A stretch of DNA of 41,013 nt, taken from IMG/VR virus record IMGVR_UViG_3300030061_000272, positions 1 to 41,013 of that record; one strand, 5' to 3'. The first letter of the stretch is position 1. Every line of letters starts with the position of its first letter. Positions 30,508-41,013 of this stretch are shown here, one piece after another. The DNA is from a virus. A program made the translations under genes and the position numbers. Under the pieces are notes generated by a model. The model did no database searches. It had not been told where the DNA came from and saw only the letters and a list, made by a program, of their open reading frames with translations.

Positions 30508-30537
30508 ATTAAATTAAAAGGGCAACCGAAGTTGCCC
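30508..30537 (-). terminator. UUCG-loop intrinsic terminator between SSB and primase-helicase
   Basis: Read on the - strand: GGGCAAC-TTCG-GTTGCCC (stem 30520-30526 / 30531-30537) followed by TTTTAATTT. A 7-bp GC-rich stem, ultra-stable UUCG tetraloop and U tract make a classic intrinsic terminator after the SSB gene. It lies 32 bases downstream of SSB and 12 upstream of the primase start, so it likely lets SSB be made in excess of the enzymes behind it. Confidence 0.9.
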
Positions 30538-30568
30538 ATATTATAACCTACTTTATTTAAAAGTACAA

Positions 30569-30955
30569 TTAAAATTCAGAAGGGTCATACTCCTCTACAC
30601 CATCTGCCTTCTCATCTACCCTTACACGCTCTAAGTAAGTGTATCCATCATAGGGTGCTTTGCCTTTCTTTACAAGCATAGTTACTTTGTCACCAAACAA
30701 AGATAGGTGAGTAGCATCTACCTCATCCTTATCTGCATTGTAAATCTTAGGCTGACCAAAGTCTACCTTACGCTTAGAAGTAATTTGAGTCTTACCCTCA
30801 TACTCCTTAGTCACTAAGCCATTCTTCTCAGCAGTCTTGATACCTGACTTATCTAAGGATACAGTAAGTGTGTACTTACTCTGTCCTTTGAATACATCAG
30901 GCTGTGTTACTTTGTTAAACACAACTTCACCAGTCAATGATATATAATCACTCAT
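30569..30955 (-). CDS. Single-stranded DNA-binding protein (T7 gp2.5-like)
   Basis: A 128-residue protein with an OB-fold-like sequence: YISLTGEVVFNKVTQPDVFK, SKYTLTVSLDKSG, PKIYNADKDEVDATHLSLFG, KVTMLVKKGKAPYDGYTYL. It ends in an acidic tail with C-terminal aromatic residue (EEYDPSEF), the feature by which gp2.5-type proteins contact polymerase and primase-helicase. First gene of the middle operon, with its own promoter at 31152-31180, long leader, and a terminator after it. Confidence 0.88.
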   Translation of the reverse strand: MSDYISLTGEVVFNKVTQPDVFKGQSKYTLTVSLDKSGIKTAEKNGLVTKEYEGKTQITSKRKVDFGQPKIYNADKDEVDATHLSLFGDKVTMLVKKGKAPYDGYTYLERVRVDEKADGVEEYDPSEF

Positions 30956-31002
30956 CTCTACATCTCCTTATAGTTAACATTTAATTTTACATCTAGCAGC
31001 AT

Positions 31003-31076
31003 TCTAAGTAATACTACTAAAAGTGTAGTAGAAAAAATGGAAGTAAAAACTACTACACTCTTAGTAATACTAAGTA
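31003..31076. repeat. Long imperfect inverted repeat in the SSB leader
   Basis: A perfect 10-bp stem (AGTGTAGTAG at 31022-31031, CTACTACACT at 31050-31059, loop 18) extends outward with mismatches to about 25 bp (TAAGTAATACTACTAA against TTAGTAATACTAAG). The right arm also contains a separate 7-1-7 dyad, CTTAGTAATACTAAG at 31060-31074, that looks like a protein operator. It lies in the leader of the SSB message, downstream of the promoter. Confidence 0.75.
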
Positions 31077-31103
31077 AGTATCATTGACTCATCTATACAT
31101 TTA

Positions 31104-31130
31104 GAATGTTGTTGGTAGTGGGTTCAATGT
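31104..31130 (-). promoter_or_regulatory. Shared leader element, SSB operon copy
   Basis: Read on the - strand: ACATTGAACCCACTACCA then ACAACATTC, about 20 bases after the predicted transcription start. A near-identical element is found at 34614-34640 (+ strand) in the leader of the terminase operon. A phage-specific control element such as an anti-termination or RNA-processing signal is a fair guess. Confidence 0.6.
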
Positions 31131-31151
31131 TTTCTTTCTTAGAATAGTAGT

Positions 31152-31180
31152 ATTGTATCATAGATTTTATACTTTGTAAA
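31152..31180 (-). promoter_or_regulatory. Sigma70-type promoter for the SSB/replication operon
   Basis: On the - strand: TTTACA (31175-31180), 17-base spacer, TACAAT (31152-31157); each box differs from consensus at one base. It lies directly downstream of the terminator of the early operon and about 190 bases upstream of the SSB start, so it can start a new transcript for the DNA metabolism genes using host RNA polymerase. Confidence 0.85.
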
Positions 31181-33224: not shown

Positions 33225-33839
33225 TTATCTCCTTTTTACCTTTTCGATTATAACTGTGCTTTCATTATGTCTATAACATGCCATACAATCAACACATTTT
33301 TGGCCAGTGCAATGTACTTGGCCTTCTTTAACGCTGTCATTATATGAAGCATTAAAAACCTTGTGAAAGCCTTTAGGGGGCTTTTCTATTATTCTATTGG
33401 TTTTTGGGTTAGAATAAATAAATATAATGTTTTTGGGTGCTTCTTGGCCTTCTAAGAATTGTTTTACTAAGTTACTTCTCTTAGTCCATAAAGCGAAATG
33501 AGTATCAGGGTTCAATTTAGCTATGTTAATAAAATTAATTAAATGCTCGTAGTTGATTAACTCTCCATGTGCATGGAATCGGAAAGTGTGAGCGTTAATT
33601 GAGGGTAAATTATCAAGGGGTATTATACTCTCTAAAGCCTTTGAATTCTTCTCCCATGAGGGGGCGCAATTCTTCCTTGAACCTTCTAACATTGAAGCAC
33701 TATAACAAACCTTGCAAATAGTTTCTGTACTTCGCATTTTTGTGCAATATTCATTTGTCAAGGTGTTTGTATTGAGGGCGGGTATTCCTTTTAATTTACC
33801 TGTCATTTTTGATTCTGTGAGCCTGTTTAAGTATTCCAT
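33225..33839 (-). CDS. GP88-like Cys-rich protein
   Basis: A 204-residue protein with two Cys clusters: C32, C42, C45, C58 (YCTKMRSTETICKVCYS) and a C-terminal set (HCTGQKCVDCMACYR). Between them lie HTFRFHAHGELINYEHL, HFALWTKRSNLV and NIIFIYSNPKTN. This matches, from memory, the phage Gene 88 protein family (GP88), whose Cys suggest a metal or iron-sulphur site and whose barrel-like core has been compared with radical-SAM-type proteins. Biological role unknown. Its place among early genes suggests a host-directed or nucleotide-related function. Confidence 0.8.
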   Translation of the reverse strand: MEYLNRLTESKMTGKLKGIPALNTNTLTNEYCTKMRSTETICKVCYSASMLEGSRKNCAPSWEKNSKALESIIPLDNLPSINAHTFRFHAHGELINYEHLINFINIAKLNPDTHFALWTKRSNLVKQFLEGQEAPKNIIFIYSNPKTNRIIEKPPKGFHKVFNASYNDSVKEGQVHCTGQKCVDCMACYRHNESTVIIEKVKRR

Positions 33840-34254: not shown

Positions 34255-34552
34255 GGGATTTATGCATTAATTATAAAACTTTGTACACTTCATGTATTAA
34301 GAAAATGATGTATAAAAACTATGAAAACGACTCCGAATAAAAAACAAAAGGGGAGTTTATACCCTTCGAGAGTCTCCGAATAAAAACGAGGGGAGAAAAG
34401 CCCAGAAAGGCGAGGGGCGGGAACCCTTTCCACGAATTTACACACACACAGAATCCTACCTCCATCCAAAATTATTATTTTTTGAGTAATTCCCTGCACA
34501 CATACCCAGAATTCGGGCACAATGAATAAATACTTACACAAACTAAGAAATA
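34255..34552. other. Divergent control region without recognised genes
   Basis: About 300 bases without a supported gene. Most is AT-rich, but 34320-34440 stands out with purine/G-rich runs (GAGGGGAGAAAAGCCC, GGCGAGGGGCGGGAACCC) and a short CA repeat at 34440-34450. This contrast, between divergent operons, would suit a replication origin or protein-binding region; nothing proves it. Confidence 0.5.
34331..34386. repeat. Direct repeat pair CTCCGAATAAAAA
   Basis: The 13-mer CTCCGAATAAAAA occurs at 34331-34343 and 34374-34386, 43 bases apart (about four helical turns), each followed within ten bases by a G-rich run (AGGGGAG and GAGGGGAG). Two spaced copies between divergent promoters suggest a protein-binding site, possibly linked with replication or switching. 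Confidence 0.6.
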
Positions 34553-34563
34553 TATGGTATAAT
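34553..34563 (+). promoter_or_regulatory. Extended -10 promoter P1 for the terminase operon
   Basis: TATGGTATAAT gives a perfect -10 box (34558-34563) with the TGn extension. No good -35 box is present, as usual for extended -10 promoters. Transcripts would start near 34570 with a 140-base leader containing the shared element at 34614. Confidence 0.75.
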
Positions 34564-34613
34564 ATTGCTTATATTTTGAAGTTAAGCATACCTAGAACCA
34601 CACATATAAACAT

Positions 34614-34640
34614 ACATTGAACCCACTTCCACAACAATCC
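34614..34640 (+). promoter_or_regulatory. Shared leader element, terminase operon copy
   Basis: ACATTGAACCCACTTCCA then CAACAATCC; the first 14 bases are identical to the element at 31104-31130 and the rest differs by about four changes including one missing base. Located about 45 bases after the P1 start. Confidence 0.6.
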
Positions 34641-34690
34641 AAATTAAATGAATGACTTTGTATATATTCTAGGAATAGCATAAGCAATTT

Positions 34691-34701
34691 TATGGTATAA
34701 T
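34691..34701 (+). promoter_or_regulatory. Extended -10 promoter P2, next to the terminase start
   Basis: A second exact copy of TATGGTATAAT, 138 bases after the first. The -10 box ends at 34701, so transcription would start near 34708, only about two bases before the ATG at 34710. This implies a leaderless message for the small terminase. Confidence 0.75.
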
Positions 34702-34709
34702 ATAAGTAT

Positions 34710-35297
34710 ATGGCAAATAAAGGTGAAATCTCTATAGACTCAGAAGATGAGATTAGAGAAATAGAAAAAGAACTTGAAGAAGAACTACGTTATGCAGTTG
34801 CATCAGCTAAGGGTGTCGTACCAGCAGACGCTGTATTAAAGATAGAGCGCAAGCGAGGTCGACCTACTGGTGGTCTTAGTTCAGAATCTAAGAAAGCAGG
34901 TGGTAAAAAGTCTAGAATTAAGCGTGGACAAACGTATAAGCCTACAGATGACGATTATTCTAAGGTAGAAGAAATGGTTACTATAGGATTAGACCAGCAT
35001 ACTATAGCTAAAATTATGGGTATTAGTAATGCCACCCTTACAAAATATTATGCACACAATTTGACTGTAGGAAAAGAAAAACGTACCGCAAGGGTTGCCG
35101 GAGTTGCTTATGAAATGGCAGTTTCAGGAGAATCTCCTAGCATGACTACGTTTTGGTTAAAGACTCAGGCCGGATGGTCTCCAAAACACCACGTTGTTGT
35201 AGAAGATAGACAGTTTGACATACAATGGGCTAGTGATGAAGCGGATATTGCGGATGCAAATCAAATACTAAAGAATAAGGAAGGCAAGATACACTAG
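34710..35297 (+). CDS. terS: Terminase small subunit
   Basis: A 195-residue protein that recognises phage DNA for packaging. The N-terminus is acidic (DSEDEIREIEKELEEELRYA), followed by a basic linker with an AT-hook-like core (ERKRGRPTGG) and a helix-turn-helix (KVEEMVTIGLDQHTIAKIMG, ISNATLTKYYAHNL). The C-terminal part (ARVAGVAYEMAVSGESPSMT, FWLKTQAGWSPKHHV) is typical of small terminases. No Shine-Dalgarno is present before the ATG, which agrees with the leaderless P2 transcript. Large subunit follows at once. Confidence 0.85.
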   Translation: MANKGEISIDSEDEIREIEKELEEELRYAVASAKGVVPADAVLKIERKRGRPTGGLSSESKKAGGKKSRIKRGQTYKPTDDDYSKVEEMVTIGLDQHTIAKIMGISNATLTKYYAHNLTVGKEKRTARVAGVAYEMAVSGESPSMTTFWLKTQAGWSPKHHVVVEDRQFDIQWASDEADIADANQILKNKEGKIH

Positions 35298-35302
35298 TAT
35301 TT

Positions 35303-36592
35303 ATGCAAGAGGAGAGGAAATCTATTGTAATTCCCTATACACCTAGGGATTTACAGAAACACCTACATACTAATCTAGATAGATTTAATGTAGTTGTATG
35401 TCACAGAAGGTTTGGTAAGACTGTATTTGCTATAAACCAGCTAATCAAAAGTTCTGTAGAAGATATACAAGCTGGCAAGAGACAACCTAGATATGCGTAC
35501 ATAGCACCACTATTTAAGCAGGCTAAAACAGTTGCTTGGGATGAATTAAAAAGACTATGTAGCGTATTCCCTGAAGTTAAGTTTAATGAAGCGGAACTAA
35601 GGGCTGACTTCATGGGAGCTAGGATACAACTGTACGGAGCTGATAACTATGACACTCTCCGTGGAATTTATCTTGACGGTGTAGTATTAGATGAGTATGC
35701 CCAAATGAACCCTAAGATGTTCTCAGAGGTTATAAGGCCGGCACTCTCAGATAGAAAGGGGTATGCAATATTTATTGGTACACCTAAAGGAAAAAACGAA
35801 TTTTATGATTTATACCACTCTGCCCCAGAGAAGAAGGGATGGGCCAGATTCTTATACAAGGCGAGTGAAACAGGAATATTAGATGATGAAGAGCTCGAAC
35901 TTGCGAAACAGGATATGGCAGAGACTGAATTTGAACAAGAATACGAGTGTTCTTGGTCTGCTGCACTTAGAGGTGCGTATTATGCTAAAGAGATTGAAAC
36001 TGCTTATGAAGAAGACAGAGTGGGGAAAGTCCCTTATGACCCGGCTAAACAAGTAGTAACAAGCTGGGACCTCGGAGTAAGTGACGCAACTAGTATATGG
36101 TTCTGTCAGTTTGTAGGTAAAGCGGTACACGTTATAGATTATTTTGAAGGTTCAAACGAAGGATTGCCATACTATATAGATGTACTTAAACAAAAAGGCT
36201 ACCACTATGGTGCACACATAGCACCACACGATATAGTAGTTAGAGAATTTTCTACTGGTAAGTCACGAAGAGACCTAGCATTTGACCTAGGCATTGACTT
36301 TCAAGTAGCACCAAAGTTAAAGGTTATGGATGGTATAGACACTACCAGAACTTACCTAAATAAATGTTGGTTTGACGAAGAAAAGACTAGAAAGGGTTTA
36401 GAAGCATTACTACAATATAGAAGTAGTTATGATGATAAGAAGAAGATTTGGTCACAGAAACCAGTCCACGATTGGACTTCACACGCTAGTGATGCATTTC
36501 GCTACTTGTGTATAACAGATGTAGTGTTTACAGGTAATGATAGTGTCTGGGGAAGGGAACTCCCTGAGACAGATTTAAGTTGGATAGTATAA
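35303..36592 (+). CDS. terL: Terminase large subunit
   Basis: A 429-residue packaging motor. ATPase: Walker A CHRRFGKTVFA (residues 33-43), Walker B GVVLDEYAQM (D130, E131), coupling motif FIGTPKGKNEFYDLY. Nuclease: SWDLGVSDATSIWF with D256 and D261, and a last acidic site in THASDAFRYLCI near residue 405. The nuclease type resembles that of T7/T3-like or P22-like enzymes with unit cutting unknown. The ATG at 35303 has only a weak upstream RBS; a strong AGGAGAGG lies inside the coding start. Confidence 0.95.
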   Translation: MQEERKSIVIPYTPRDLQKHLHTNLDRFNVVVCHRRFGKTVFAINQLIKSSVEDIQAGKRQPRYAYIAPLFKQAKTVAWDELKRLCSVFPEVKFNEAELRADFMGARIQLYGADNYDTLRGIYLDGVVLDEYAQMNPKMFSEVIRPALSDRKGYAIFIGTPKGKNEFYDLYHSAPEKKGWARFLYKASETGILDDEELELAKQDMAETEFEQEYECSWSAALRGAYYAKEIETAYEEDRVGKVPYDPAKQVVTSWDLGVSDATSIWFCQFVGKAVHVIDYFEGSNEGLPYYIDVLKQKGYHYGAHIAPHDIVVREFSTGKSRRDLAFDLGIDFQVAPKLKVMDGIDTTRTYLNKCWFDEEKTRKGLEALLQYRSSYDDKKKIWSQKPVHDWTSHASDAFRYLCITDVVFTGNDSVWGRELPETDLSWIV

Positions 36593-36601
36593 GGAGAAGG
36601 T

Positions 36602-36739
36602 ATGAATCCAAAGTGGTTAGAAAATAAAATATTAGAAATATTGCAAGAGGTTCAAGACATCAAGCATATTATGAAAGCAGTTAGTATGTCGCAACCGCCA
36701 GAAAAATCGGCAAAAGAACCAGCAAACAAAGGTAAATAA
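36602..36739 (+). CDS. 45-residue protein between terminase and portal
   Basis: A short gene with a strong RBS (AAGGAGAAGGT) right before its ATG. The product begins MNPKWLENKILEILQEVQDI, an amphipathic helix, and ends in a Pro/Lys-rich tail (QPPEKSAKEPANKGK). It stops three bases before the portal start. Small helical proteins here are common in marine phages; function unknown. Confidence 0.75.
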   Translation: MNPKWLENKILEILQEVQDIKHIMKAVSMSQPPEKSAKEPANKGK

Positions 36740-36742
36740 TAT

Positions 36743-38791
36743 ATGGCAAAAATGACAAAACGTGAGCTCTCTGCTCACCTAGAGCAAGAAATTAATTCTG
36801 CACTAGGTTATAAAGACGGAAAGCTAACAGAGCAACGCTCTGATGCGCTAGACCGTTACTACGGTAAGCGTTATGGTAACGAGCAAGAAGGTCGCTCACA
36901 GATTGTCACAAGAGATGTAGCTGATGTAATCGAATGGATTATGCCAAGCCTTATGAAGATATTTACTTCGGGCGATAAGGTAGTACAGTTTGAGCCACAA
37001 GGACCAGAAGATGTGGAGATGGCAAAGCAGTCTACTGATTATGTTAATTATGTAATCATGAGACAGAACCCCGGATTTCATATTATATACCAGTGGTTCA
37101 AAGATGCCTTACTACAAAAAAATGGTATAGTCAAACACTATTGGGATGACAGCAGTGAGACATTAAGAGAAGAATATAAGAATCTTACTGAAGAAGAGTT
37201 TACTGCTCTCTTAATGGATGACAATGTCGAGGTAAAAGAACACACAGCTAATGGCGGTGAAGAGAACATGGATGAAATGGCTCTTGCACCTCAAGCTGTA
37301 ACGCATGATGTTGTTGTTAATAGAACATATGAGGATGGACAAGTTCGTATAGAAGTTGTACCACCAGAAGAATTTTTAATAAACAAGTATGCTAAAACAA
37401 TAGAAGATGCTCGTTTTGTAGGACACAGGGTAAAGAAAACTAAATCTGAGTTAATACAACAAGGATACCCTAAAAGTAAAATTGAGAATATATTTAGTAA
37501 TGACGAAGCTGACCACAAAGCTGAAAGACTTTCTAGATTCTCACACGAACAAGACAATGCACCTGAGGGTGACATTGATGATGGAATTTGGGTTACAGAA
37601 TGCTACATGCGTGTAGACTTTGACAATGATGGCATTGCTGAACTAAGAAAAGTAACGAAGGTTGGAGATGAACTTTTAGATAATGAGGCTGTGGATAGTG
37701 TTCCCTTCTCCTCCCTTACACCTATACCAATGCCTCATAAGTTTTACGGTCTGAGTATATACGACTTAATCTCTGACCTTCAACTAATTAAGACTACATT
37801 AATGCGTAACTTGTTAGATAATATGTACCTAACAAATAATGGGCGATATGAAGTAGTCGAAGGACAAGCTAATTTAGATGACCTAATGACTTCTAGACCG
37901 GGTGGTATTGTACGAGTGCGTACACCGGGTGCTGTTAACCCATTGGGAACACCACAACTAGATGCTAACTCATTCAACATGCTAGGATACTTAGATAGTA
38001 TTAGAGAAGAAAGAACAGGAGTTAGTAAACAATCAATGGGTTTATCTGAAGGTGCGTTAAAGTCACATCAAACTGCTACAGGTGTCGGTCAAGTCATGAC
38101 TGCTGCACAGCAGAAGATTGAATTAATAGCTAGAGTATTTGCTGAAACAGGAATGAAAGATTTAGCAAACTCTGTCTATATGCTAGTACAGAAATACGAA
38201 AAGCCTGAAAAACTAGTTAGACTAAATAACAAATGGACTACGCTATACCCACACGAGTGGAAAGAAAAATTAGATTGTGTAGCACAAGTAGGTCTAGGAT
38301 TTGGTAACAAAGATATGAACCTAATGCACTTAGGTAGATTGTCGCAGACAATACAAATGATTGCACAACACCCAGCAGCAGGTATGTTACTTAAACCAAA
38401 GCATGTATATAATTTAGTAGCCGAGCAAATAAAAGCTATGGGTATGAAAAATGTAGATGACTTTATACAAGACCCCGGTGAAGCAGATGTGCCACAACAA
38501 CAAGGCCCTAGTCCAGAAGAGCAAGCCAAGCAAATGGAATCACAGCTTAAGGCAGAAGAAATAAAAGTCAAACTACAAAAGATACAGCAAGAGTCTGCAC
38601 TAAGACAACAAGAAATGCAAATAGATGCTGAAATAGCACAGCAAAATCTTGAACTAAAAGCACAAGAAGCTAAAGTAGAAATGCAAATTAAAGCACAAGA
38701 GCTTGAAATTAAAAAAGCAGAATTAGCACTTAAACAACAAGAACTTATTTTAGAAAAAGAACAAGAGCGAGCTGTTAAAATAGGAGACTAA
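36743..38791 (+). CDS. Portal protein
   Basis: A 682-residue protein forming the twelve-part ring at the capsid vertex through which DNA enters and leaves. Typical parts: RSQIVTRDVADVIEWIMPSL, VNYVIMRQNPGFHIIYQWFK, VVPPEEFLINKYAKTIEDAR, FYGLSIYDLISDLQLIKTTL, LLDNMYLTNNGRYEV and LDSIREERTGVSKQSMG. The last 90 residues are a long Gln/Glu/Lys-rich coiled coil (EIKKAELALKQQELILEKEQ), likely the barrel extending into the head. Position between terminase and scaffold agrees. Confidence 0.93.
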   Translation: MAKMTKRELSAHLEQEINSALGYKDGKLTEQRSDALDRYYGKRYGNEQEGRSQIVTRDVADVIEWIMPSLMKIFTSGDKVVQFEPQGPEDVEMAKQSTDYVNYVIMRQNPGFHIIYQWFKDALLQKNGIVKHYWDDSSETLREEYKNLTEEEFTALLMDDNVEVKEHTANGGEENMDEMALAPQAVTHDVVVNRTYEDGQVRIEVVPPEEFLINKYAKTIEDARFVGHRVKKTKSELIQQGYPKSKIENIFSNDEADHKAERLSRFSHEQDNAPEGDIDDGIWVTECYMRVDFDNDGIAELRKVTKVGDELLDNEAVDSVPFSSLTPIPMPHKFYGLSIYDLISDLQLIKTTLMRNLLDNMYLTNNGRYEVVEGQANLDDLMTSRPGGIVRVRTPGAVNPLGTPQLDANSFNMLGYLDSIREERTGVSKQSMGLSEGALKSHQTATGVGQVMTAAQQKIELIARVFAETGMKDLANSVYMLVQKYEKPEKLVRLNNKWTTLYPHEWKEKLDCVAQVGLGFGNKDMNLMHLGRLSQTIQMIAQHPAAGMLLKPKHVYNLVAEQIKAMGMKNVDDFIQDPGEADVPQQQGPSPEEQAKQMESQLKAEEIKVKLQKIQQESALRQQEMQIDAEIAQQNLELKAQEAKVEMQIKAQELEIKKAELALKQQELILEKEQERAVKIGD

Positions 38792-39052
38792 ATGGGGAAT
38801 AAGGGAGAAGAAATAGCAAGGGCAGACCAAGCTAAACAAATTTTAGAACATCCTCTTTATATAGAGGCTCTATCCACAGTCAAGGAAGCATTAATACAAT
38901 ACTTACTTGATACCAAAGTTGCCGAGGAAGTGGAAAGAGATAGATTGTATATAACAATTAAAGCACTGGAGTTAGTTAACCAACACATAACTTCGGTACT
39001 TGAAACGGGCAAACTTGCTGAAAGGGAGCAAGAAGAATTTTTAACACAGTAG
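38792..39052 (+). CDS. Small helical protein between portal and scaffold
   Basis: An 86-residue helical protein (EEIARADQAKQILEHPLYIE, VNQHITSVLETGKLAEREQE). This gene type is found in the same place in many podoviruses; RADQAKQILEHPLYIEA is a pattern I recall. Probably a minor head-assembly protein. ATG directly follows the portal stop. Confidence 0.78.
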   Translation: MGNKGEEIARADQAKQILEHPLYIEALSTVKEALIQYLLDTKVAEEVERDRLYITIKALELVNQHITSVLETGKLAEREQEEFLTQ

Positions 39053-39065
39053 AGGAGAAAGACCT

Positions 39066-40109
39066 ATGGATTCCGTAGAGAACACCCAAGAAGGTAAATT
39101 TGATAGAGCACAAGCAGGTTCGGCAGAAGAAGCTGCAAACCAAATCCTAAGTATGTGGGACTCAGAAGAGCAAACCGCAAGCGAGGAAACCGAACCCACT
39201 GTTGACGAGGAAGTGGTAGAGGATACAGAGGAAGCTGAAGAGGTAGAAGAAGAGGCCCCCGAAGAAGAGGGACAAGCTGAAGAAGAAACCGAAGAAGAGG
39301 TAGACGAAGAAGAAGCTGAAGAAGAAACTGAAATAGTAGCTGAAGAAGATTTGAAGTACACCATTAAGGTAGACGGAGAAGAATTTGAGGTTGGTATTGA
39401 TGAGCTTAAAAACGGATACCAAAGGCAAGCTGACTATACTCGTAAGTCTCAGGCACTAGCCGAGCAGCGTAAGGAGACGGAACAAATCCAGTCCGAGCGT
39501 ATGCAACTAGAGCAAGAGAGGCAAATGTACGCTAATGGCTTACAAATGTTGCAAGAGCAACAAACAGCTAAACTTAAACCTTTTGAAAGTGTTGATTGGG
39601 AAGCATTAAAAGCAGAAGACCCTTATCAGTACATGATTAAAAAAGATGAGTACAGAGACGCACAGGAAAGAGTTACTAATATACAGCAACAACAACAACT
39701 TGTTCAACAAGAGCAAAATCAACAAGCTCAAAAAGCAAGGGCACATTTTGTTCAACAAGAGTACAGTAAATTAGTAGAAGCCTTACCTGAGTGGAACGAT
39801 AAAGATTCTACTATTAAGAAAGATGTACAAGAGTACGCTAAATCAGTAGGATTTTTGCCAGAAGAGATTAACCAGTTGGCAGACCACCGTAGTGTTCTAG
39901 TAATTAAGAAAGCTATGGAGTATGACAAGCTAACAAAAAAGGTTGCTCCTAAAAAGAAAGCGGTAAAGAAAGTTCCTAAAGTACAAAAATCTGGAAGAGG
40001 CAATTCAAAAGAAGACGCAGCTGTTGAAGCTATTAAGAAAAAGCGTGCAAGGTTGCAGAAGTCAGGCAAGCAAGATGATGCCGCTTCTGTATTTTATGAT
40101 ATGCTTTAA
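39066..40109 (+). CDS. Capsid scaffolding protein
   Basis: A 347-residue protein directly before the capsid gene. Residues about 36-95 are extremely acidic (EETEPTVDEEVVEDTEEAEE and further Glu runs), the centre is a long coiled coil (SQALAEQRKETEQIQSERMQ, LEQERQMYANGLQMLQEQQT), and the C-terminus is Lys-rich (KKVAPKKKAVKKVPKVQK), the usual capsid-contacting end. A KYTIKVDGEEFEVGIDELKN segment near residue 97 is typical of such phage scaffolds. It guides head assembly and is then removed. Confidence 0.88.
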   Translation: MDSVENTQEGKFDRAQAGSAEEAANQILSMWDSEEQTASEETEPTVDEEVVEDTEEAEEVEEEAPEEEGQAEEETEEEVDEEEAEEETEIVAEEDLKYTIKVDGEEFEVGIDELKNGYQRQADYTRKSQALAEQRKETEQIQSERMQLEQERQMYANGLQMLQEQQTAKLKPFESVDWEALKAEDPYQYMIKKDEYRDAQERVTNIQQQQQLVQQEQNQQAQKARAHFVQQEYSKLVEALPEWNDKDSTIKKDVQEYAKSVGFLPEEINQLADHRSVLVIKKAMEYDKLTKKVAPKKKAVKKVPKVQKSGRGNSKEDAAVEAIKKKRARLQKSGKQDDAASVFYDML

Positions 40110-40124
40110 TATGGAGAAAATGAA

Positions 40125-41013
40125 ATGCCTACGCAATTCAAAACTTATGATGCAACAGCAATCCGTGAGGACTTGTCTGATGTAATCTATGACATTTCCC
40201 CAACTGATACTCCCTTCCTATCGAGTATTGCAGGTAAAGGCTCGGTTTCTAACACTTACTTTGAGTGGCAAACCGATGCATTAGCTGCTGCTTCTGGAAC
40301 GAATGTTCATGTTGAGGGTGCAGCTGCTGGTACTGCTGCAACTACAGCTACTACTCGTTTGGGTAACTACACTCAAATCAGTAAGAAAGTTGTTGAGGTT
40401 TCTGGTACACACGAAACTGTAAACAACGCTGGTAAAAAATCTGAGATGGCTCACCAACTCGCCAAGGCTTCTAAGGAGCTTAAGCGTGATATGGAGACTT
40501 CACTTCTAGCTGACAACGCTGCTGTTGCGGGTAACGCATCAACAGCTCGTGAGACTAAAGGTGCTGCCAACTGGATTGCAACTAACGTAACTGACGCTGG
40601 AACTTCTGGTTCACACGCAGCAGTTGTTGAGGATGACATCATTGCAGTAGCTCAGTCTACTTGGAACGCTGGTGGAGAGCCTTCAACTATGCTACTTGGT
40701 GCTACTAACAAGAAGTTAGTAACAGCTATGTCAGGTCGTGCTGATGCAGTACGTTCAGTATCAGATGACAATATGTCAATCTACAATGCAGTAGATGTAT
40801 ATGTATCAGACTTTGGTACATTCAACATCACTCTTGACAGATACTGCGACCAAGACGTTGTATACTTCTTAGACCACGATATGTGGTCAGTTGATTACCT
40901 TCGTGATTTCCAAACTGTGGACATCGCTAAAGAAGGTGACTCAGACAAGAAGATGCTTCTAGTTGAGTACGGTCTACGTTGTGGCAACGAAGCCGCTAAC
41001 GGTAAGATTAGAT
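40125..41013 (+). CDS. Major capsid protein, N-terminal part (3' end runs out of window)
   Basis: The first 296 codons of the major capsid protein; the last four residues and stop are found only in the copy at the window start. Typical parts: QFKTYDATAIREDLSDVIYD, ISPTDTPFLSSIAGKGS, FEWQTDALAAASGTNVHVEG, RLGNYTQISKKVVEVSGTHE. This N-terminal pattern is that of SU10-type (DUF5309) capsid proteins from memory. RBS ATGGAGAAAATGAA precedes the ATG at 40125. The last 455 bases are the overlap with bases 1-455. Confidence 0.9.
   Translation, partial: MPTQFKTYDATAIREDLSDVIYDISPTDTPFLSSIAGKGSVSNTYFEWQTDALAAASGTNVHVEGAAAGTAATTATTRLGNYTQISKKVVEVSGTHETVNNAGKKSEMAHQLAKASKELKRDMETSLLADNAAVAGNASTARETKGAANWIATNVTDAGTSGSHAAVVEDDIIAVAQSTWNAGGEPSTMLLGATNKKLVTAMSGRADAVRSVSDDNMSIYNAVDVYVSDFGTFNITLDRYCDQDVVYFLDHDMWSVDYLRDFQTVDIAKEGDSDKKMLLVEYGLRCGNEAANGKIR
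40559..41013. repeat. Terminal overlap, right copy (matches 1-455)
   Basis: Ungapped match to bases 1-455 with about 44 substitutions by my count. See the left copy for details. Removing one copy gives a circular unit of about 40,558 bases. Confidence 0.9.

Follow-up and report, generated by a model that had tools for sequence, protein, structure and literature searches.

Why does one phage genome carry the same short segment in the leaders of two operons that lie on opposite strands? We analyzed a virus record of 41 kb (41,013 nt; hereafter the window), and the relatives with which it is compared are metagenome contigs. ACATTGAACCCACT is found as an exact 14-mer at 34614-34627 (+) and at 31130-31117 (−), as a preliminary description of this DNA had stated, and the resemblance is far from chance: the two leaders can be matched with gaps over ~32 nt (31130-31099 vs 34614-34644), their local alignment scores 42 (z = 9.7 against 300 shuffles), and the ~32-nt match belongs to an ungapped 42-nt pair (71%), which no other inverted repeat found in the window exceeds in length. 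With up to three mismatches allowed, sites for the 14-mer are not in excess within the window (5 found vs 4.6 expected); the unusual feature is the presence of two exact copies with matching flanks, not the abundance of the 14-mer. The literal 14-mer was rejected as a conserved motif, the pattern with its flank occurring in 12 IMG/VR contigs, probably by chance, and in none of the relatives’ contigs. As had been proposed, the copies lie outside coding sequence and point in the direction of transcription. Each follows a good sigma-70-like promoter, and the distance of 20-45 bases previously given between transcription start and copy is roughly right, since the copies begin ~15 nt (SSB) and ~44 nt (TerS) past start sites that are predictions from sequence only.

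The terminase label of the plus-strand operon is backed by the PHROG 309 match of its small subunit gene (TerS). The SSB label of the minus-strand operon has no sequence-family support, with neither a Pfam nor a PHROG match for the gene, and draws its support from the fold, the predicted model (pLDDT 81) matching Enc34 SSB and T7 gp2.5 with a Foldseek probability of 1.00. A search of 50,697 deposited phage genomes found no relative of this SSB, which leaves the group without a close isolate there. In the TerL gene region the window shows a distant relationship to HTVC010P-kind Pelagibacter phages (66-72% DNA identity over short stretches). On the 3′ side of SSB lie genes for a Toprim/DnaB-type primase-helicase, a family A DNA polymerase, a ribonucleotide reductase and a RusA-like nuclease. 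Because an intrinsic terminator follows SSB, these replication genes are out of reach of the SSB promoter unless there is read-through or an extra promoter; the position of the terminator is conserved in most relatives, in sequences that differ but stay paired. In several relatives, a TATAAT stands immediately 5′ of the post-SSB hairpin (GGTTATAATATGGGGCAAC; window 30515-30550, −), a possible extra promoter from which a transcript would start at the hairpin. Two methods were both applied to 34700-41013 of the late operon, and neither detected a strong intrinsic terminator there. The record also repeats 300 bases at its ends (1-300 vs 40559-40858, 88% identity, same head gene region), probably because a contig that was circularly permuted or of mixed strains was joined imperfectly.

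Table 1 Features of the SSB and TerS leaders and adjoining genes in the window.
Feature	Position	Strand	Remarks
Intrinsic terminator, GGGCAAC-UUCG-GUUGCCC-UUUU	30520..30537	−	between SSB and primase-helicase
SSB gene, gp2.5/Enc34-SSB-like fold	30569..30955	−	Foldseek
CUUAGAAU, predicted closing strand of the leader, paired with 5′-end AUUCUAAG	31001..31008	−	whole-leader fold
HP2, long hairpin with conserved loop UUUUUACUUCCAUUUUUU	31009..31072	−	covariation; one per relative
HP1 region	31081..31145	−	5′ end AUUCUAAG at 31145-31138; module in apical part
HP1 stem	ACAUUGA (31130-31124) / UCAAUG (31087-31082)	−	
Module copy 1, SSB leader	31099..31130	−	repeat match to TerS leader
Predicted SSB promoter, TTTACA-N17-TACAAT	31152..31180	−	estimated transcription start ~31145
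Promoter P1, TACACA-N17-TATAAT, extended −10	34535..34563	+	conserved in relatives
TerS leader hairpin	34591..34673	+	exactly one per relative (covariance model)
TerS stem 1	CCUAGAA (34591-34597) / UUCUAGG (34667-34673)	+	
TerS stem 2	AUAUAAA (34604-34610) / UUUGUAU (34657-34663)	+	covaries
Module copy 2, apical part of TerS hairpin	34614..34644	+	repeat match to SSB leader
−10 of promoter-like site P2 (TATGGTATAAT)	34696..34701	+	8 nt before TerS start codon
Terminase small subunit gene	34710..35297	+	PHROG 309

What the preliminary description missed is that each copy forms the apical segment of a larger RNA hairpin leader, both leaders being conserved. SSB and TerS searches gathered about 100 related loci, and several near-complete genomes were read; in ~80 related IMG/VR loci each copy is apical in a conserved 5′-leader hairpin, which is the TerS hairpin in one leader and HP1 in the other. 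The SSB leader of the relatives has HP1 at its 5′ end, followed by the long HP2, with a −10-like hexamer 72-112 nt ahead of HP2 in most of them. By itself, HP1 is weakly folded in the window (z −0.8) and strongly folded in most relatives, and the fold of the whole SSB leader has a z of −5.9, the CUUAGAAU/AUUCUAAG closure being limited to the window’s close relatives. In the HP2 alignment, 99.2% of cells are paired, 10 of the 21 pairs have changed on both sides (0/500 shuffles) and the G-U pairs never vary, and this covariation with invariant G-U pairs argues that HP2 works as RNA rather than DNA; stem 2 of the TerS hairpin covaries too, and both hairpins are thus conserved RNA structures. Each genome has one HP2 by covariance model, the E-values of which are rough, and weaker opposite-strand matches are the same palindrome. 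No Rfam covariance model matched the leader structures at the gathering score (HP2 gave weak miRNA-like matches, E 0.01-0.4, far below gathering), and no tRNA/tmRNA or other known RNA family was found.

In close relatives, every TerS leader shows a promoter (TATGGTATAAT) and then a hairpin with an invariant stem 1 (CCUAG/CUAGG) and a stem 2 that is variable yet covarying (CUAAAG/CUUUAG, CUAGUG/CACUAG, CUAAUG/CAUUAG and others). Nearly all relatives have the TATAAT of P2 ahead of TerS, usually 6-10 nt from its start codon (8 nt in the window; 34690-34712, TATGGTATAATATAAGTATATG), and no Shine-Dalgarno site; position and missing site together suggest that the terminase mRNA may be leaderless. 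Two further candidate elements of this leader were set aside, namely a leader peptide (MNDFVYILGIA), whose start codon is absent in G003 as judged by eye, and an outer helix (ATTGCTTA/TAAGCAAT), which lies mostly upstream of the estimated start and was not counted. Upstream of P1, AAAATTATTATTTTTT (34465-34485) is conserved at the same place in nearly all relatives and is perhaps the early leftward promoter or a packaging signal. Farther upstream, where the early genes give way to the TerS leader (34331-34400), CTCCGAATAAAAA...GGGGAG occurs twice in tandem and resembles a terminator if read on the minus strand.

The two hairpins of the SSB leader appear to follow different partners. In L229 and L230, where SSB lacks a promoter of its own, HP1 is missing and HP2 is retained, and HP1 thus seems to go with the promoter and transcription initiation, HP2 with the SSB gene. 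This retention is in line with an autoregulation of the T4 gp32 kind, where SSB would bind HP2 and an AU-rich region and repress translation, the shared segment being a second SSB site. As in the gp32 operator (PMC535899), a structured leader is followed by a conserved AU-rich stretch (here UUAAAU/GUUAAC) before the Shine-Dalgarno site, and the gene that it precedes is an SSB gene by its fold match to Enc34 SSB and T7 gp2.5; in T4 and RB69, moreover, the RNA targets of the gene 32 protein diverge between related phages although the proteins stay alike (PMC535899). However, the T4/RB69 operators contain a pseudoknot, the structures predicted here being hairpins, the modules change while SSB stays 99% identical, and autoregulation accounts for HP2 but not for the matching segment in the terminase leader. 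It is therefore very unlikely as the explanation of the shared segment, and would be a good separate candidate for HP2. The HP2 loop (31037-31054, −) is strongly conserved, and its CUUCC could pair weakly with a downstream GGAG.

Across phages the apical segment varies, yet both leaders of one genome carry the same type. The window shares type A with G003 and G004, type B is found in G001, G002 and L028, type C in G005, G006 and G019, type D in L030 and L100 (where ~42 nt are nearly identical in both leaders) and type E in G008, G010, G020, L083, L101 and L213, with L194 listed as a further type. In types C and E the two segments match better in reverse complement, a behavior of some clades that had also escaped the preliminary description. 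Among 31 non-redundant genomes, leaders paired within their own genome scored 990 vs 584 ± 37 when partners were swapped, and in a set of 20 genomes 743 vs 398 ± 39, neither own-pair score being reached in 20,000 permutations. Permutations within one type were mostly not significant in the 31-genome set because related genomes of one type pair well mutually, and what the test picks up is that the two leaders switch type together. In the other, divergent genomes the match is only weak (p = 0.004 for the group). The check proposed earlier was to look in related phages for the element upstream of the same operons, and its outcome is positive with one modification: ACATTGAACC persists in the two leaders of close relatives, whereas more distant ones replace the whole segment jointly in both. 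What stands of the proposed control element is therefore a shared, transcription-oriented leader element, and not a fixed sequence, the segment being phage-specific. Hairpins at or near the predicted 5′ ends could also stabilize the mRNA or guide its processing, the apical match then being a secondary matter, but such a role does not predict a loop sequence shared within one genome, and we consider it highly unlikely.

The joint change can occur between close relatives. For example, G000 and G001 have SSB proteins that are 99% identical and different modules in both leaders, and G000 and G002 have most early genes between the modules in common (GP88-like, 98%) while both modules differ, which speaks against transfer of the two modules together as one cassette. 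The GP88-like gene itself (Pfam PF17338; window 33225-33839, −) belongs to a variable early region, is found in G002 (98%) and is absent from the other five near-complete relatives compared. Site-specific inversion was likewise rejected, with no tyrosine integrase in nine records and promoters that keep their places. Each of five near-complete genomes tested for it holds exactly two copies, and neither a third copy nor an antisense partner elsewhere was found in them, save one short coding match in the window.

The main rival to a functional pairing is homogenization by recombination, in which gene conversion or template switching between the two loci would preserve the likeness of two hairpins of common descent, no shared trans-acting factor being involved, and loop flipping by recombination between the hairpin arms would yield the reverse-complement cases. 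The matches in both senses are in keeping with this, as are a reverse-complement alignment that spans ~43 nt of the hairpin (L205), the SSB copy of G000, which scores 63 against the TerS copy of G003 and 42 against its own as if sequence had moved between sites, and the failure to find a gene that tracks types A and B. On the other hand, the match is limited to the apical part in most genomes while stems, promoters and HP2 remain locus-specific, and the pairing holds across phages with SSB proteins 64-100% identical to that of the window. In clade A, several substitutions and an indel separate the copies within one genome, and any conversion there is not recent. On balance we regard homogenization as rather unlikely.

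The orientation-independent matching could also reflect a double-stranded DNA operator, with one phage or host regulator binding both segments downstream of the promoters in either orientation. Their position (+15 to +75 from the estimated start) and the partly palindromic segments of types B and C agree with this, but the segments lie within conserved RNA hairpins, those of types A and D are not palindromic by eye, and no regulator gene tracks the A and B classes; an operator of this kind is decidedly improbable. More generally, no phage gene was found to track class A vs B in the five near-complete genomes, none being common to A and lacking in B, although changes of a few residues could escape, and the residues separating A from B are the fewest of all ten partitions of these genomes. 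Since neither a gene nor a residue pattern follows the classes, there is no support for a dedicated phage factor. It is conceivable, if improbable, that the two leader elements must match each other through RNA, through a host factor or in an R-loop, and that no phage protein is dedicated to the task; if so, the segment would drift and even invert while forming a private two-site code that links the replication and packaging operons.

The explanation that we favor, tentatively and at a little under even chances, is that the copies are the apical, phage-specific parts of two promoter-proximal hairpins that form a shared cis-acting control element. One hairpin leader heads the SSB-replication operon and the other the late terminase operon, and we infer that the pair is a recognition element placing both under the same control. 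Both operons would seemingly be transcribed by the host RNA polymerase. No match to a T7-like RNA polymerase was found, in a search that gave none in control genomes either, and a phage RNA polymerase is likely absent. Shared control is favored because two promoter-proximal elements in outward-facing operons, which here sit at the 5′ end of the predicted transcripts, resemble nutL/nutR and putL/putR, and within this explanation it has about an even chance. Its most likely form would be processive antitermination of the nut or put kind, in which the polymerase is modified during elongation and transcription would thereby pass the conserved post-SSB terminator and run through the long late operon; this specific mechanism is possible but doubtful. 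Several observations weaken the explanation as a whole: no phage protein tracks A vs B as a matching N-like factor might, the reverse-complement match of types C and E is odd for a recognition site in single-stranded RNA, 34700-41013 lacks a strong intrinsic terminator, several divergent phages match weakly, and HP1 of the window is weakly folded on its own.

The put RNA of HK022 suppresses termination via the zinc-binding domain of the RNA polymerase beta′ subunit, and the nut hairpin loops of lambdoid phages are type-specific in different related phages. The lambda system of nutL/nutR and N shares with our leaders two co-oriented noncoding copies in outward-facing operons and type-specific loops; unlike lambda, however, the window has a ~32-nt segment rather than a 15-nt hairpin, neither leader contains a boxA (YGCTCTTTA-like) site at one mismatch or fewer, and no N-like gene tracks class A vs B in the five near-complete genomes. 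In HK022, putL and putR are related RNA elements that lead the two early operons from PL and PR; both fold into a pair of stem-loops, and the promoter of putL is immediately followed by putL (PMC9378689). The SSB leader has two stem-loops (HP1 and HP2) right after its promoter, with a single conserved hairpin in the TerS leader, and the two leaders of one phage are similar in sequence, although here in the apical segments only. The two put elements are ~70 nt long and share sequence; in the leaders studied here the apical segment alone is shared and varies between phages, the likeness to put being one of layout.

Taken together, two leader RNA structures without an Rfam match are defined in a group of uncultivated marine phages, and unusually, the apical sequences of the two agree within each genome in many divergent phages. 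Should conversion maintain this match, two noncoding hairpins would offer a clear example of concerted evolution in nature; should selection maintain it, a partner factor should be findable. The pair offers a direct, testable handle on how replication and late-gene expression may be coordinated in phages of AT-rich marine hosts that seemingly lack an RNA polymerase of their own.
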